From positions 62,001 to 126,000 of the forward strand of contig JAKQGX010000027.1 of assembly GCA_029573235.1 (NCBI GenBank): a stretch of DNA of 64,000 nucleotides, written 5' to 3'. A model generated the notes under the pieces. It saw nothing but the letters and a program-made list of their open reading frames with translations, made no database searches and was not told the origin of the DNA. This document shows positions 5,423 to 11,909 of this stretch, piece by piece (positions within the stretch are counted from its first letter, which is position 1; each line of letters opens with the position of its first letter). The position numbers and the translations under genes are program-made. Source of the DNA: Bacteroidota bacterium (GTDB lineage: Bacteria > Bacteroidota > Bacteroidia > Chitinophagales > Chitinophagaceae).

Positions 5423-5770
5423 AGAATATTATTTCAATAAGAACGAAAAATGTAGCGATGGGTGTCCTAACCACATCGCTACAAATTAAAGATTAGAAAT
5501 CAGTTTTTTATCAGCTTACCGTCATATTTAATACCATCTATAGTGATATGGTAGATGTACACACCAGAAGCAAGTTTACTAATATCAAAACTGAGCTTAT
5601 CCGATTGTATTAGTTGCTTAATGATAACTTGTCCAACACTATTCGTTACAACAATATCTCCTTCACTCCAATCAAAAGGAATAGAAATTTCAAACCTATC
5701 CATTACAGGATTAGGATACAATAAGACTTTCTTACTCAATTCTTCATTCATGCCTTCTTCACCATCACTA
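5388..5770. repeat. Repeat A, intact copy
   Basis: This segment covers the 5' end of the type B gene, the intergenic hairpin and the C-terminal sorting domain of the type A gene. It is closely similar over its length to 12148-12500 in the same orientation. A 35-bp stretch at 3252-3286 is likewise identical to 11987-12021. Confidence 0.85.
5446..5483 (-). terminator. Hairpin between the two T9SS genes
   Basis: On the minus strand, TGTAGCGATG and CATCGCTACA form a 10-bp stem with a 13-nt loop, followed by TTTTTCG. It lies just after the stop of the 809-residue gene and before the start of the next gene, so it probably ends or attenuates transcription. The same hairpin is preserved in the decayed copy at 12205-12242. 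Confidence 0.7.
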
Positions 5771-7929
5771 CTGTATCTAGCATTTGCTCCATTATTAACT
5801 CCACTACAAATTCCATTATTCGCTATTCTAAAATAACTTTTATTGGTAGCTACACAATTAAATGGAGAAGGTGTTGTTACTTCAAAGTCAACACAATATA
5901 CTCTGCTGCTGTAGTCTGACAATTGACTGTTATTACAAGCCCAAGTGTAAAAATATCGAAAGTAATCTACGTCATCTCCTGCCACACCAGATGCATAGAA
6001 TGGAGGTGCAGTAGGGTCGAAGATTACAGTAAAATTATTAAAATCCAAATTACCTGATGCAGAACCGCTACCGCTTGCTGTAAAAAGATCTGGAGCAGAG
6101 ACGCTCGAAATAACTATTCGTTCACCTGTATTTGGATCAACTTGATATACCTTTATTTGATACGTTCCATAAGTAATAATAGCTCTTATTCCCATTGTAG
6201 AATTCGCCCCATACCAACCAACGGCATTATCAATAGATGTGCGAAAAGCAGCCAGCGTGCTACCTGAAGGCATAGTAGATGTTATAGGTAAAGTTGTTTG
6301 TAAATTTTTATCACTAGGTACTCCGGGAGAATTTAATTTTATTGCCTTATAATTTGCCAAGGTCGTTGTTGAACCTGCTACATTAAAAAGCATAGGACTT
6401 GGCACATTGCTACAACCATTTACAGTTATAGTAACTCGGATTGCCCCTGTATAAGTATCTAACCATGGAAAAGAACTTATCAAATTTGTAGAATTGGTTG
6501 TAGCAGACCCGTTTATAGTTAACGGACTTGGGCTAAATTGAGTACCGCTTGCTGTAAACGTATAAAAAGGTGGGGTGATTGTACCATTCTCAACTATAAT
6601 ACTAAAAGACGTGTGGTAACTATTTATTAATGCATTGAGCATTAATACACCGTCACAAATGTAGAGATTGTTTATCGTTGACCAATTGGGTTGTATCACC
6701 CCTTCAATATCCCACTGCGCCGCCGAAACAGAATAATCCGTTACATCATAATTCTCTCCATCAATCTGCCTTTGAATATAATACCCCCAATTATAATAGG
6801 TGGATACTTCTCCGCCGCTTGCTGCTTGTACCGGGGAAGAACTGCTTGGCAACGACGGGTCAAAATAATATAAATTTCCCGCCCCGCTTACAAAGCCTGA
6901 AGAATAACTCGGATTGTAAGCAAAATATAATAAGCCATTTTTTGCAAGTTCTATTTCGGTGAAGCCAAATACAGACGGTACACCATACGTATAAGGTGTA
7001 GTAGGACCAGATCCTGAATGAAAATCATAGTATGTAATACCGCCTGCGTAAGGTGAGGTGGCATTATGGCTGCTTACATACAAGCGGTCATTGCTACCTG
7101 TAATACTGGCGGGTACATATTCATAGCCGGCTATGATTTTTCCAACAGATATCAACCTCACATTAGGAGCACCATGCATTGGGAAAAGGTCGTATATCAT
7201 CACACCTTGGTATCCACAGGGGTTCATCAGAACATGATTGCCATCTGATGTAACCTCCATACGCACCTGATGATTGACTGGATAAGGCAGCGTAGCCAAT
7301 AATCCGTTATACACTACGTTTCCGTAAGGGTCTATTGTCCAGCTTATCAGTCCACTACCCCATACTGCATATATAGTTCTTGAGCCATCACTTGCCAAAG
7401 GTGCTACTGCCACATCCCAACTTCCTGTAGCACCACACCCGCCTTCCGGTATATCGCTAGGGTTTGGAGTTAGGTCAACCTCCTCAATAAACTCCATATT
7501 TTCTGGATTTTCTCCATTATATTTTACTATACTAAGCTTTACGGAATGGGGCTTTCCCCCAACGTATTTCCATGACACCTCCCAGTAGTCATTGCAAAGA
7601 CCGGGTACGGTAAATAAAATATCTGCTCCTGCATTACTAGGATTAATGTTTGTGCCATTAGCATCATAAATGCTACAAAGGTTAAAAGCTTTATAAATGG
7701 AGCCTCCACCGGTAGAAAGTACGCCTTGTTGCGAGCCGGCAGTTGTGCAGAATGTGATGTCCGCTCCTCCGGAGAAATTGGAGAAAGCCCCGCTGTTGGC
7801 ATTCATCTTAATGTTGGGTGGAAAATACCAATCGTTAGCTTGAGCGAATGAGGAGGTAACCTTTAGCAGCAGGCAAGCTGATACTACCAAACCGCATATA
7901 AATTTTTTAAACAATAGTGGTTTTTTCAT
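5500..7929 (-). CDS. Secreted protein with T9SS type A sorting domain
   Basis: This 809-residue protein has a signal peptide (MKKPLLFKKFICGLVVSACL through SSFA-Q, about 29 residues). The large N-terminal part has recurring W/Y-D-P and G-rich strands (DWYFPP, YYFDPSLP) that could fold as a beta-propeller; I cannot assign a known catalytic family. The C-terminal ~75 residues are a type A sorting domain: LLYPNPVMDRFEISI, SVGQVIIKQ, LASGVYIYHI and terminal GKLIKN. T9SS should move it to the cell surface. Its promoter region carries two palindromic operator-like sites and a -7 box that match the layout upstream of the neighbouring two-component operon, so it is a candidate target of that system. 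Confidence 0.8.
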   Translation of the reverse strand: MKKPLLFKKFICGLVVSACLLLKVTSSFAQANDWYFPPNIKMNANSGAFSNFSGGADITFCTTAGSQQGVLSTGGGSIYKAFNLCSIYDANGTNINPSNAGADILFTVPGLCNDYWEVSWKYVGGKPHSVKLSIVKYNGENPENMEFIEEVDLTPNPSDIPEGGCGATGSWDVAVAPLASDGSRTIYAVWGSGLISWTIDPYGNVVYNGLLATLPYPVNHQVRMEVTSDGNHVLMNPCGYQGVMIYDLFPMHGAPNVRLISVGKIIAGYEYVPASITGSNDRLYVSSHNATSPYAGGITYYDFHSGSGPTTPYTYGVPSVFGFTEIELAKNGLLYFAYNPSYSSGFVSGAGNLYYFDPSLPSSSSPVQAASGGEVSTYYNWGYYIQRQIDGENYDVTDYSVSAAQWDIEGVIQPNWSTINNLYICDGVLMLNALINSYHTSFSIIVENGTITPPFYTFTASGTQFSPSPLTINGSATTNSTNLISSFPWLDTYTGAIRVTITVNGCSNVPSPMLFNVAGSTTTLANYKAIKLNSPGVPSDKNLQTTLPITSTMPSGSTLAAFRTSIDNAVGWYGANSTMGIRAIITYGTYQIKVYQVDPNTGERIVISSVSAPDLFTASGSGSASGNLDFNNFTVIFDPTAPPFYASGVAGDDVDYFRYFYTWACNNSQLSDYSSRVYCVDFEVTTPSPFNCVATNKSYFRIANNGICSGVNNGANARYSSDGEEGMNEELSKKVLLYPNPVMDRFEISIPFDWSEGDIVVTNSVGQVIIKQLIQSDKLSFDISKLASGVYIYHITIDGIKYDGKLIKN

Positions 7930-8007: not shown

Positions 8008-8075
8008 CAAAAATATCTTGACATTGGAGCTATTCTTACCGTTATAAACGGCAAATGCTACCGTTTAAAAACGGT
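8008..8075 (-). promoter_or_regulatory. Activator-type promoter of the 7929 gene: -7 box plus two palindromes
   Basis: The minus strand carries TATTTTTG (8015-8008), a perfect TAnnTTTG box, without a TTG at the -33 position. Starting 22 bp upstream of the box is site 1, ACCGTTATAAACGGC (8038-8052, core arms CCGTT/AACGG). Starting 22 bp further is site 2, ACCGTTTAAAAACGGT (8060-8075, 7-bp arms). Two sites two helical turns apart next to a -33-less promoter is the usual layout for an activator. The motif is shared with 10774-10881. Confidence 0.65.
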
Positions 8076-8115: not shown

Positions 8116-8763
8116 TTAGTGCGTGTACAAGCCCATGTTGATAGCAAAAACCACCAAGCCCGAACGGCTGCGAACCTTTAGTTTATCAAGCAATGCGTCA
8201 CGATAACCTTCTACAGTTCTTTGGCTGAGTTCCATCTTCACACCAATTTCTTTGTAGGTCATATCGGTGCAGCAATAGGAAAGGAATTCCATCTCCTTTT
8301 GAGATAGATTAAATTCATTTTTTTTATTGGTATGTATGGCATTGAATAATCTGCCGGAGACGAAGTTAGAATGATAGTATTGTTGTTGCGAAACTTGTTG
8401 CAAAGCATCCTTTAATTCTTCTGGTTCCATGCCCTTCAAAATATAGCCATGTGCCCCATTGCGCAGCATCTTGATGATACTGTATTCATGGTCATGCATA
8501 GAAAGCGCAAGCATTTTTATATCCGACCACTCTCTCTTTATGATTGCAGCCGTTTCAAAGCCGTTTAATTCCGGCATGTTTATATCCAACAAAACAATGT
8601 TAGGGAGTTGTTCAGCAGTTGTTATTTTCTCAATCAATTCTTGTCCATTAGCCGCTTCTATTATTACTTTGAAATTTCCAAAATTGTTTATCAGTTCGAT
8701 AATTCCTTTTCGAACGATTGCATGGTCATCAGCTACTGCAACTAATATAGTTTTATCAGCCAT
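8116..8763 (-). CDS. LuxR/NarL-type response regulator
   Basis: This 215-residue regulator has a receiver domain (residues 5-122): acidic pocket D12/D13, phospho-acceptor D60 in VLLDINMPELNG, S88 and K110. A C-terminal LuxR-type helix-turn-helix follows (152-215; LSQKEMEFLSYCC, YKEIGVKMELSQRTVEGY). An upstream in-frame ATG at 8806-8808 exists, but the ATG at 8761-8763 starts exactly at the conserved receiver sequence MADKTILVAVADDH. That start overlaps the kinase stop by 8 nt (ATGGCTGA), indicating translational coupling. It should be phosphorylated by the kinase encoded just upstream. The palindromes upstream of this operon and of the 7929 gene are its candidate binding sites. Confidence 0.92.
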   Translation of the reverse strand: MADKTILVAVADDHAIVRKGIIELINNFGNFKVIIEAANGQELIEKITTAEQLPNIVLLDINMPELNGFETAAIIKREWSDIKMLALSMHDHEYSIIKMLRNGAHGYILKGMEPEELKDALQQVSQQQYYHSNFVSGRLFNAIHTNKKNEFNLSQKEMEFLSYCCTDMTYKEIGVKMELSQRTVEGYRDALLDKLKVRSRSGLVVFAINMGLYTH

Positions 8764-9550
8764 TGGAGGGTGGTTTTTTAGGTATATGCAACAAGATTTC
8801 TGTCCCATTACCTATTGTAGAGGATATCTTCAATTCGCCTTTTAAGAGCTTTGCACGATGCAGCATATTCCTCAATCCTAAACTATTGTAATTTAGTTTT
8901 TCTATTTCAAATCCCTTCCCGTCATCTGTAATTTTTACATCCACAGTGTCCGTACTATTATTTAGTATGATGCTTACCTCTGTAGCTTGTGCATGTTTCA
9001 ATACATTTTGAATGCTTTCTTGAATAACACGATACACCAATAAATTTTGTTCTTGTGTTAATGGCAATTCATCATCACCTATCACTTGAAGGTCAAATTT
9101 TAAACCCAAGGAATTTGTAATGTGTTCAAAATCTTTTTCTAAAAATGAGATAAGACCCATTTCAGAAATCATCTTGCCGTTTAGGCTATGGCTTATGTGT
9201 CGCAAGTCTGTTACGGCTTGCGATATCATTGTAAACGAACGGTCAATCAAGCTTTGACTGCTTTCATTGTTATCCTGCTTTTTCAATATGGATAGATATG
9301 TCCGCGACATGGTAAGTAGTTGCCCTACATTATCATGTATCTCTTCAGAAATTAAAGCCATTGATTGTTCCTGCACTTCCAATCTTGTAGAAAGCAAATC
9401 GTTTTGATAGCTGATTTCTAAATTTTTTTTCTCAAATTGATGATTGAGTTGCCTGCGTCTTTGTAGAATTAAAACGCCGGTTAATGAAACCGCAAATAGT
9501 ACTAATACTATAGAGCCAAACAAAAACAGTGGAAGTAAATATTCATTCAC
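8756..9550 (-). CDS. NarX/DesK-type sensor histidine kinase without an obvious sensor domain
   Basis: This 264-residue kinase has one N-terminal membrane helix (about 5-29), a short coiled linker, and a HisKA_3 dimerisation domain with H72 in SEEIHDNVGQLL. The ATPase domain has an N-box (ESIQNVLKHA, N182), a G1 box (DDGKGF, 209-214) and a G2 region (SLGLRNM). There is no periplasmic or PAS/GAF input domain, so signal perception probably comes from another protein. The 7-TM protein encoded just upstream (8-nt overlap, 9543-9550) is the obvious candidate. It phosphorylates the response regulator at 8116-8763. Confidence 0.92.
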   Translation of the reverse strand: MNEYLLPLFLFGSIVLVLFAVSLTGVLILQRRRQLNHQFEKKNLEISYQNDLLSTRLEVQEQSMALISEEIHDNVGQLLTMSRTYLSILKKQDNNESSQSLIDRSFTMISQAVTDLRHISHSLNGKMISEMGLISFLEKDFEHITNSLGLKFDLQVIGDDELPLTQEQNLLVYRVIQESIQNVLKHAQATEVSIILNNSTDTVDVKITDDGKGFEIEKLNYNSLGLRNMLHRAKLLKGELKISSTIGNGTEILLHIPKKPPSNG

Positions 9551-10190
9551 GTATGGCAGCTATTTTTTTATAGAATAAGAAAATTATGGCAAATCCTAAA
9601 TACGCCAAAATATTCACCATCCATAGCATGTATGTTGCAGGACGCATATAGCTAAATAGCTCCTTCAACAACACATTATACATACCCCAGTATGAATATA
9701 AACACGACCAATAAATAAGAAAAATTGTCGTAACCCAAAAATGAACATTAGAAACAATAGGTTGTCTATGCAGCATGAGCTGATAGTATGAAAACACACA
9801 TAAGCTGATTATTATAAAGCCCTCAAAAAGAAGAAAGATAGAGTTAATAGTATGTATGGGTTGCAAAAAAGCAATGTTGCATACGGCAAAAACGGCACCT
9901 ATGATGCCGATATACACACCCATTTTTCTTCTTTGCAGCCAGTCTATTCGCTTTTGAAAATATAATACCACTAAGAAAAGTTCAATAGGGCTGAAAACAT
10001 TGTACACGTACATGTTGTTTTTATAAATATTCATAAAATATACCGCAGTAAGTTCTACTATTATATTACCAAGCAATAAATAACGTAAGTATTTATCTGC
10101 AGGATGTAAGAATTTTCGATTTACAATTCCACCAATTAATCCACATGCAACAAGACATATATATATACTAAGTGCTGAAAGAATATTCAT
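9543..10190 (-). CDS. 7-TM membrane protein of a two-component operon
   Basis: This 215-residue protein is almost entirely hydrophobic, with about seven predicted helices (near residues 3-20, 34-53, 62-78, 89-108, 118-136, 150-168 and 190-207). Short polar loops separate them and the C-terminus is basic (KKIAAIRE). I do not recognise a transporter or enzyme motif. It overlaps the kinase start by 8 nt and begins 3 nt after the lipoprotein gene, so it is translated with them. By position and topology it is a candidate input module for the short kinase; this is inference. Confidence 0.7.
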   Translation of the reverse strand: MNILSALSIYICLVACGLIGGIVNRKFLHPADKYLRYLLLGNIIVELTAVYFMNIYKNNMYVYNVFSPIELFLVVLYFQKRIDWLQRRKMGVYIGIIGAVFAVCNIAFLQPIHTINSIFLLFEGFIIISLCVFSYYQLMLHRQPIVSNVHFWVTTIFLIYWSCLYSYWGMYNVLLKELFSYMRPATYMLWMVNILAYLGFAIIFLFYKKIAAIRE

Positions 10191-10193
10191 TTT

Positions 10194-10712
10194 CTAATGG
10201 CTTAATGTTGCATTTCCTAAACAGGTAGTAGGACAAGGATTCATATAATCATACACTTGGTTGTTCCTATTGTAAACGTAGTTATTCTGCTCGTCTAAAC
10301 CAACCACCACCAACGTAATAGCTGCTGCATGCAATCCGGCATTGATTCCGAAGTTTCCATTTGCAAGATAATTAGGTGTGTGAGCTAACATGAATTTGAG
10401 GGTAACAATTTTTCCATGTGATGTGTCATTAAGATAGGCGCGTAATGTATCTGCATCAAAAGTAAGAGAACGTAATGTAGTATCATTTTCTGCATAGTTG
10501 ATGCTGGATAGGTAGCTGCCAATCATTTGATTTGCTTCCGATATGGATATCGCCTACGAATAATCTGATTCGCTATATCGCACCATTGATGAGATGTTGC
10601 TTTTGGACGAGATTGTTGGAAGTGATGGTGTGGAAATGCCTTCAATTGTTTTTTCTTTTTTGCAAGCAAGCAGGAATACACTGAAAACGATGCTAAAGAT
10701 TGTTCTCTTCAT
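10194..10712 (-). pseudogene. Lipoprotein gene interrupted by an in-frame amber codon
   Basis: Reading from ATG at 10710-10712 gives a lipoprotein signal (MKRTIFSIVFSVFLLAC, lipobox LLAC). The frame stays open to the stop at 10194 except for one TAG at 10554-10556 (codon 53). The frame on both sides of the stop is the same, and the downstream part (LRSLTFDADTLRAYLNDTS and onward) looks like normal protein. Without the stop it would be a 172-residue lipoprotein, the first gene of the operon with the 7-TM protein, kinase and regulator. Explanations are a recent nonsense mutation, a sequencing error or amber readthrough. Downstream reinitiation at ATG 10524-10526 would give a 110-residue protein without a signal. 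Confidence 0.7.
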
Positions 10713-10743
10713 AAAATAGTTTTTTAGCGGTTATTTGATGCGC

Positions 10744-10751
10744 CAAAACTA
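10744..10751 (-). promoter_or_regulatory. -7 box of the two-component operon
   Basis: The minus strand reads TAGTTTTG, a perfect TAnnTTTG, 31 nt upstream of the lipoprotein start at 10712. The 22 bp between it and the first palindrome contain no TTG -33 element, which suggests activator dependence. Confidence 0.6.
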
Positions 10752-10773: not shown

Positions 10774-10881
10774 AACGTTTTAAAACTGTATCAGCAACCG
10801 TTTTTCACTCGTGAGAATTTCCATTTTTAATCGGTATTTATGCCCGTTTTTTAACGATAATGTTTATCGTTTTTAGCCCCA
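10774..10881. promoter_or_regulatory. Phased array of degenerate palindromes upstream of the two-component operon
   Basis: Four 16-bp sites start at 10774, 10797, 10820 and 10843, exactly 23 bp apart: AACGTTTTAAAACTGT, ACCGTTTTTCACTCGT, TCCATTTTTAATCGGT and CCCGTTTTTTAACGAT. A fifth copy at 10866 keeps only the left half (ATCGTTTTTA). The column consensus is close to ACCGTTTTTAAACGGT, which matches the perfect site at 8060-8075. A 23-bp period is close to two helical turns, so bound dimers would line up on one DNA face. The array ends 22 bp upstream of the -7 box. Confidence 0.6.
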
Positions 10882-11105
10882 ACTACTATATCCGGTGCAG
10901 CATCTACATCTTTATGAAAAAATGTTGCCAGATATCCTAGTGGTAGAGATATGGTGGTGCCTATACAACGTTTACACAAGTAGTATCGGTGTCTTTTCAC
11001 ATGAAATATTACCGAACGGGATGTTTCGCAACACCCTATAGAGATAATATGGCTAAATGCCTTTTGTGCTGCATCGTGATTTTGTTTGAACATCAGAGCG
11101 CTCAC
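10851..11105 (-). CDS. Small cysteine-containing hypothetical protein
   Basis: This 84-residue reading frame is not confidently recognised. It contains GCCETSRSVIFHVKRHRYYLCKRCIG followed, after the break, by a hydrophobic stretch (TTISLPLGYLATFF). That order, R-S plus G/H-x-x-x-x-L-C-x-R-C-x-G before a membrane helix, recalls the start of small DUF2085-type membrane proteins, but the rest of such a protein is missing. Its 3' end overlaps the last sites of the palindrome array. It is divergent from pyrH. It may be a truncated gene or chance. Confidence 0.35.
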   Translation of the reverse strand: MSALMFKQNHDAAQKAFSHIISIGCCETSRSVIFHVKRHRYYLCKRCIGTTISLPLGYLATFFHKDVDAAPDIVVGAKNDKHYR

Positions 11106-11198: not shown

Positions 11199-11909
11199 AT
11201 GCTTCCAAAATACAATCGAGTTCTACTAAAACTATCCGGCGAATCGCTCATGGGTGACCGCAATTTCGGTATTGACCCTAAAATGTTGGAGCAATATGCC
11301 ATAGAAATAAAGTCTATTACGGATATAGGCGTACAAGTAGCAATCGTCATTGGAGGAGGAAATATTTATCGCGGGATGAACGAGTCGGAAACCGGTATAG
11401 AAAGGGCGCAGGGAGATTATATGGGTATGCTTGCCACCGTTATCAATGGTATGGCACTACAGGCAGCCTTAGAAAAAGTGGGTGTGAAAACCCGCTTGCA
11501 AAGCGCCATTGAAATGGAGCAAGTAGCCGAGCCTTACATTCGCAGACGCGCTATTCGCCACCTCGAAAAAGGACGTGTGGTTATTTTTGGAGCAGGCACC
11601 GGCAACCCCTATTTCACCACCGATACTGCCGGCTCGTTACGTGCCATTGAAACCAATGCGCAAGTGATATTAAAAGGTACAAGGGTAGATGGCATTTATT
11701 CTGCCGACCCTGAAATTGACAAATCGGCACAGCGCTATGATAAACTTGGATTCAGCGAAGTGATTGCAAAAGGGTTGAAGGTGATGGATATGACGGCTTT
11801 CACATTGTGCCAGGAAAACAACCTCCCCATTATTGTATTTGATATGAATAAACCGGGCAATCTGCTTGAAGTGATTTCCGGTAAGCCTATTGGTACTTTG
11901 GTCAGTTGA
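11199..11909 (+). CDS. pyrH: UMP kinase
   Basis: This 236-residue enzyme phosphorylates UMP to UDP with ATP in pyrimidine nucleotide synthesis. It has the usual length and the amino-acid kinase fold features: N-terminal [15 protein letters not shown], the GGGNIYRG loop, and DTAGSLRA followed by the [16 protein letters not shown] segment typical of bacterial PyrH. It is hexameric and cytosolic in known bacteria. A TTTCTTTG sequence (11165-11172), one base off the -7 consensus, precedes it, and a terminator overlaps its stop. The 3' part of the gene and its terminator recur in decayed form at 19177-19568. Confidence 0.97.

Follow-up and report, generated by a model that had tools for sequence, protein, structure and literature searches.

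Introduction

Response regulators of the NarL/FixJ family combine a receiver (REC) domain with a GerE domain, have HisKA_3 histidine kinases as partners and bind inverted-repeat sites of about 16–18 bp, often several per promoter. The operators of NarL itself are 7-2-7 pairs of heptamers with the consensus TACYYMT. At class II activator promoters the site of the activator is found near −41.5. LytTR-type sites consist of direct repeats with a period of roughly two turns of the helix and have no inverted-repeat symmetry. In Bacteroidota, two-component control is tied to type IX secretion by the PorY-PorX-SigP system, which is reported to act on secretion-machinery genes via a sigma factor. The primary promoter of Bacteroidota contains the motif TAnnTTTG at −12 to −5 (PMC9723704, PMC7366714).

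The locus reported here is situated in a stretch of 64,000 nucleotides (the window; contig JAKQGX010000027.1, positions 62,001 to 126,000, assembly GCA_029573235.1) from a member of the Chitinophagaceae, whose assembly has a size of 2.15 Mb in 43 contigs and is 81% complete. A row of palindromes ahead of a two-component operon shares the general features of NarL/FixJ-family systems, but the half site ACCGT with a 6-bp spacer differs from the heptamers of NarL, and further differences from the known systems of the family are the composition of the operon, whose four genes include one for a lipoprotein-like product and one for a membrane protein (MEM), and the rows at steps of 22–25 bp. As in class II activator promoters, the proximal site is centred at about −42.5 from the predicted start and a −33 element is not visible; unlike these, the promoter is of the Bacteroidota TAnnTTTG type and further sites are present upstream. 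LytTR tandem operators, too, have half sites that recur about every two helical turns; however, the array described here is palindromic with a fixed 6-bp spacer, and no LytTR gene occurs in the operon. With PorY-PorX-SigP the system would have in common the connection of two-component control to type IX secretion, with the difference that a cargo-type gene is the predicted direct target. Judged by titles and the beginnings of abstracts, no paper on an ACCGT-N6-ACGGT motif was found.

The array and its operon

The array lies between a plus-strand gene of the amino-acid kinase family at 11199, presumably pyrH, and a minus-strand operon of four genes. A first-pass annotation of the window had reported four palindromic sites and a half site in an exact 23-bp register, and these are present as described. 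Sites were scored at the 10 positions of the core ACCGT-N6-ACGGT. The chain, assigned to the minus strand, consists of the proximal palindrome AACGTTTTAAAACTGT (10774–10789; score 8/10), followed at steps of 23 bp by ACCGTTTTTCACTCGT (10797–10812; 7/10), TCCATTTTTAATCGGT (10820–10835; 7/10) and CCCGTTTTTTAACGAT (10843–10858; 8/10), and of the left half site ATCGT in the same register (10866–10870; no strand assigned). The centres of the four palindromes are at about −42.5, −65.5, −88.5 and −111.5, respectively, from the predicted transcription start.

The total of 30/40 is the highest for any four-site chain with step 23 in the whole window. Scores of at most 24 were obtained with steps of 18–22 and 24–30, with 59 permuted half sites and with 100 dinucleotide shuffles of the window, none of which equalled the array (0/100). 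The five left halves alone scored 39/45, with a shuffle maximum of 31. The opinion that such a register is hard to obtain by chance was borne out by these controls. The term palindromic needs a qualification: the right half of site 2 is a poor match to the core, and palindromy is a property of the set more than of any single site. The suggestion of two helical turns per step, which would place dimers on one face of the DNA as in a filament, is not supported: with 10.5 bp per turn, a step of 23 bp amounts to about 2.2 turns and rotates each site by about 70 degrees relative to the preceding one, and steps of 22–25 bp occur in relatives.

The 3' end of a weak minus-strand ORF of 84 amino acids (10851–11105) overlaps the array on its distal side; the match of this ORF to DUF2085 is below threshold (20.1 bits, cut-off 25).

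The operon contains, in this order and all on the minus strand, the lipoprotein-like gene (10194–10712; ATG at 10712–10710), the gene for MEM, a hydrophobic membrane protein of 215 amino acids with neither a Pfam nor an NCBIfam match (9543–10190), a histidine kinase gene with HisKA_3 and HATPase_c domains (8756–9550; HisKA_3, PF07730, 3e-07), and the adjoining gene for a NarL/LuxR-type response regulator (8116–8808). The latter protein contains a receiver domain (Response_reg, PF00072, 7.2e-23) and a GerE helix-turn-helix domain (PF00196, 2.9e-13). These domains, together with the HisKA_3 partner, place it in the NarL/FixJ (LuxR-type) family, and the array precedes a NarL-type two-component operon, as had been noted in the first-pass annotation. 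An assignment as NarL or NarP orthologue was rejected, since both scores are below the curated NCBIfam cut-offs (NarL model, 131 bits, cut-off 250; NarP, 98, cut-off 343).

Relatives possess similar first genes, and LIPO_C matches were found in those of loci L070–L072 and L074. In the window, an in-frame TAG (10554–10556) divides the first gene into the lipoprotein-like signal and the part which is conserved in relatives; it may be a sequencing error or a true stop codon, or the gene may be broken. In another group of operons (L080, L083, L155–L159, L165–L168 and L170), the first gene codes for a conserved protein of 160–174 amino acids, not a lipoprotein, which starts with KSLKVGKYV...; the divergent neighbour is often the same in this group.

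Promoter geometry and a second promoter

A predicted −7 box of the operon, TAGTTTTG, is located at 10744–10751 on the minus strand, and transcription is predicted to begin near 10739; a −33 element is not seen at the proximal site. Two further sites, 22–23 bp apart, lie ahead of the next gene after the operon, which encodes a protein of 809 amino acids with a type IX sorting domain (5500–7929, minus strand) and is a second predicted target. The distal site (8060–8075, minus strand; centre at about −64.5) is a perfect palindrome (10/10) and literally the consensus ACCGTTTTTAAACGGT of the first-pass annotation; in the proximal site (8038–8053, minus strand) the inner spacing is one base short. 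A predicted −7 box of the TAnnTTTG type, TATTTTTG, follows at 8008–8015 on the same strand. Of the six sites mentioned in the first-pass annotation, four are, like the half site, ahead of the operon, and two belong to the promoter of the secreted-protein gene.

At both promoters of the window TTTG begins 27 nt past the proximal site, and both palindrome centres are therefore at about −42.5. This offset was counted in a set of 18 proximal sites, which included two G123 loci and left out the site L219 within a coding frame; which site was taken as proximal, and on which strand, was decided by the genes on either side, and this choice was ambiguous for L215, L224 and L227. TTTG occurred at 27 nt in 8 of the 18, with 10 misses and no other offset above 2, a count which is not an independent test, since the offset had first been noticed by eye on 16 of these 18 sites. 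By genome the values were 2/2 for the window, 3/4 for G078, 3/10 for G097 and 0/2 for G123; both operons of G030 have the offset of 27, too. In 32 operon arrays, only four exact TAnnTTTG boxes were no further than about 100 bp from the last site, and each of them was 29.5–30.5 bp from the site centre. In a wider operon set of 38 regions, offsets of 4 and 28 were found six times each, 50 five times and 27 four times, and anchoring to the −7 box is thus not general; with looser criteria, T-tracts blur the offset in the operon set.

Scans of the assembly for CCGTTT-N17-CCGTTT yielded a single place without mismatch (8046–8074 in the window) and 22 places at one mismatch, of which the array contributes four. 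Exact ACCGT-N6-ACGGT occurs at two places, 8060–8075 and a site on contig C20. With at most one mismatch, the single palindrome is present at 38 places versus 96 for the backwards control; since it is rarer than the control, it is the array and not the single motif which stands out. In the host genome the array is therefore the mark of two promoters and not a widespread repeat.

The exact palindrome on contig C20 (L002:1416–1431) stands alone in the intergenic region that separates a LytTR regulator gene from a gene for a tRNA_anti-like protein of 138 amino acids, and no TTTG is found there at 27 nt. Its occurrence is probably due to chance, or else it may represent a third target of the regulator. 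In the same region (L002:1400–1480, ahead of the 138-aa gene and just past the LytTR gene), two copies of TTACCATTTCAG are spaced about 24 bp apart.

Recurrence in relatives

Loci of relatives were obtained by a regulator search and by a MEM profile search, which had matches in 124 of 147 genomes of the family. The first set comprised 77 distinct MEM loci, i.e., those with the better-scoring MEM matches, 61 of which have a regulator gene downstream on the same strand. The 1500 bp before each of the 77 MEM genes were scanned, with 59 permuted half sites as controls. This revealed 23 perfect ACCGT-N6-ACGGT (permuted: mean 0.12, maximum 2), 40 sites with scores of ≥9 (mean 1.86, maximum 7) and 43 site pairs at 22–24 bp (mean 0.59, maximum 4); a spacer of 6 was the only one with more than one perfect palindrome.

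Three-site arrays were considered significant at p ≤ 0.01, using 400 shuffles per region. Such arrays were detected in 27 of the 77 MEM loci; 26 of these belong to the 61 loci that have a regulator, and one belongs to the 16 that lack it. About 0.6 of the 61 regulator-bearing operons would be expected by chance. The other 35 of the 61 have no array at this level. Steps ahead of the relatives' MEM operons are 22–25 bp, and 21 of 30 neighbour spacings between sites scoring ≥8 in their arrays are 23–25 or 46–48 bp. The strongest array of a relative (L132) contains three perfect sites, 24 bp apart. Both half sites are equally kept in 32 relatives' sites scoring ≥9, a set which had been chosen by palindrome score.

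A search of the 147 family genomes for exact ACCGT-N6-ACGGT-N6..8-ACCGT gave 34 matches (backwards control: 12), spread over 20 genomes. These correspond to 25 separate places, 12 of which are ahead of an operon of this kind: 11 precede a MEM gene, and one precedes a kinase-regulator operon in G097. On the level of the class, the three-half-site pattern was found in 1 of 395 genomes and MEM in 102 of 395. A strict restriction of the motif to the family was rejected, since an operon of Mucilaginibacter flavidus (L280) is preceded by a three-site array and sites with 9/10 occur in L269 and L275. In L164/L180 (G089:C49) an array is positioned directly past a regulator gene of the same family and before a gene for a protein of 297 amino acids, which has no Pfam match above cut-off.

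Conservation of the array across relatives is patchy. No significant array was found in L067, one of two MEM matches in a genome of the same genus (p = 0.095), nor in L114, a paralogue on contig C7 of the own genome with a second MEM and a downstream regulator (p = 0.99); G020, of the same genus, had no match in the MEM profile search. When loci were chosen by regulator similarity (80 loci, one too short to count), arrays at p ≤ 0.01 were present in 1 of 19 labelled Chitinophagaceae from their titles, in none of 10 unplaced loci and in 3 of the 50 remaining ones. In this set 2 of 42 MEM genes reached a three-site score of ≥20; for the first set the figure was 30 of 77. The recognition helix is shared by some operons without an array.

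Candidate regulon

Four genomes chosen for having arrays contained 12 (G097), 5 (G078), 3 (G028) and 3 (G123) exact ACCGTTNNNNAACGGT sites, with 0, 0, 3 and 0 for the backwards controls, respectively. In G097 the regulator has one close match (1.4e-81; the next is 1.4e-48), and the operon that encodes it is preceded by an array. Other sites in G097 precede genes for a sorting-domain protein (L216), a REC-PAS-kinase (L217), a patatin (L225) and proteins without Pfam match; in L221 a sorting-domain protein is the second ORF after the site, and in L219 the site is inside a coding frame. Sites in G078 precede an M43-peptidase/sorting-domain protein (L228) and a MEM operon (L229). Sorting-domain proteins are thus among the predicted targets in the window (5500–7929), L216, L221 and L228. 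Type IX cargo as a target class is only suggestive, because these genomes encode such proteins in large numbers (at least 150 in G097, 114 in G078 and 63 in the own assembly).

Discussion

The array would be an operator array for a LuxR-type response regulator, with clear sequence rules, and autoregulation by the adjacent regulator is its best-supported interpretation. It is considered probable that this NarL/LuxR-type regulator activates its own operon together with a small regulon. Autoregulation had been put forward in the first-pass annotation as the simplest explanation and still appears so, as relatives have the motif and the 22–25 bp register before operons of this kind and a promoter-like spacing separates the array from a −7 box. 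The patchy conservation, with operons, a locus of the same genus and the own paralogue lacking a significant array, speaks against it. The array would be the operator of the minus-strand operon that follows. The adjacent kinase would phosphorylate the regulator, whose dimers could then bind the palindromes. A proximal dimer at about −42.5, where no −33 element is visible, would aid RNA polymerase in class II-type activation; dimers upstream may raise occupancy cooperatively and lead to positive feedback. Via its two sites, the gene for the downstream type IX-secreted protein would be activated by the same regulator, and in some relatives the targets may comprise about ten loci. We infer the identity of the binding protein, its phosphorylation, the cooperativity and activation over repression.

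Activation appears more likely than repression. If the same regulator acted as a repressor, a dimer at −50 to −35 would block RNA polymerase and cause negative feedback, and the proximal site indeed overlaps the usual −33 region. The lack of a visible −33 element, the constant spacing from the −7 box at several promoters and the three further sites upstream, where activators usually bind, make repression unlikely. A different regulator on the array, for example one of the three LytTR proteins of the host genome, seems rather improbable: in its favour, the left halves in the window are better kept than the right halves, but relatives keep both halves equally, with a fixed 6-bp spacer, and their arrays precede an operon for a LuxR-type regulator. 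A LytTR operator was rejected, since both halves are conserved in the 32 sites chosen by palindrome score and only the spacer of 6 is enriched.

That the palindromes are intrinsic terminators or RNA hairpins is very improbable. Short stems followed by T runs occur in some relatives' palindromes, and the weak minus-strand ORF ends within the array; these points are outweighed by the regular spacing of at least three sites in a row and by central bases which are often not complementary. A location at the 3' end of genes was not found: arrays are between divergent genes in L080, L158 and L166, and in the window only the weak 84-aa ORF ends there. Chance periodicity in AT-rich intergenic DNA, in spite of degenerate single sites and a single motif which is not enriched in the host genome, is hardly credible in view of the whole-window shuffles, the permuted half-site controls and the recurrence across genomes.

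Following autoactivation by the operon's own regulator further, one could tentatively think of an undescribed code of Bacteroidota, a possibility to which we give less than even weight. It would consist of a phased row of dimers on ACCGT-N6-ACGGT, anchored at −42.5 to TAnnTTTG, and a system of lipoprotein, membrane protein, kinase and regulator which would sense the cell surface and control its own synthesis and that of surface or type IX-secreted proteins; its distribution would be in the Chitinophagaceae, with traces in the Sphingobacteriaceae.

For a LuxR-type regulator of Bacteroidota, the array would provide a concrete geometry of operator and promoter, from the palindrome centre to the −7 box. 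The partners of the regulator, a lipoprotein-like and a membrane protein, would be unusual, and the sequence rule could be used for the prediction of targets in related genomes.
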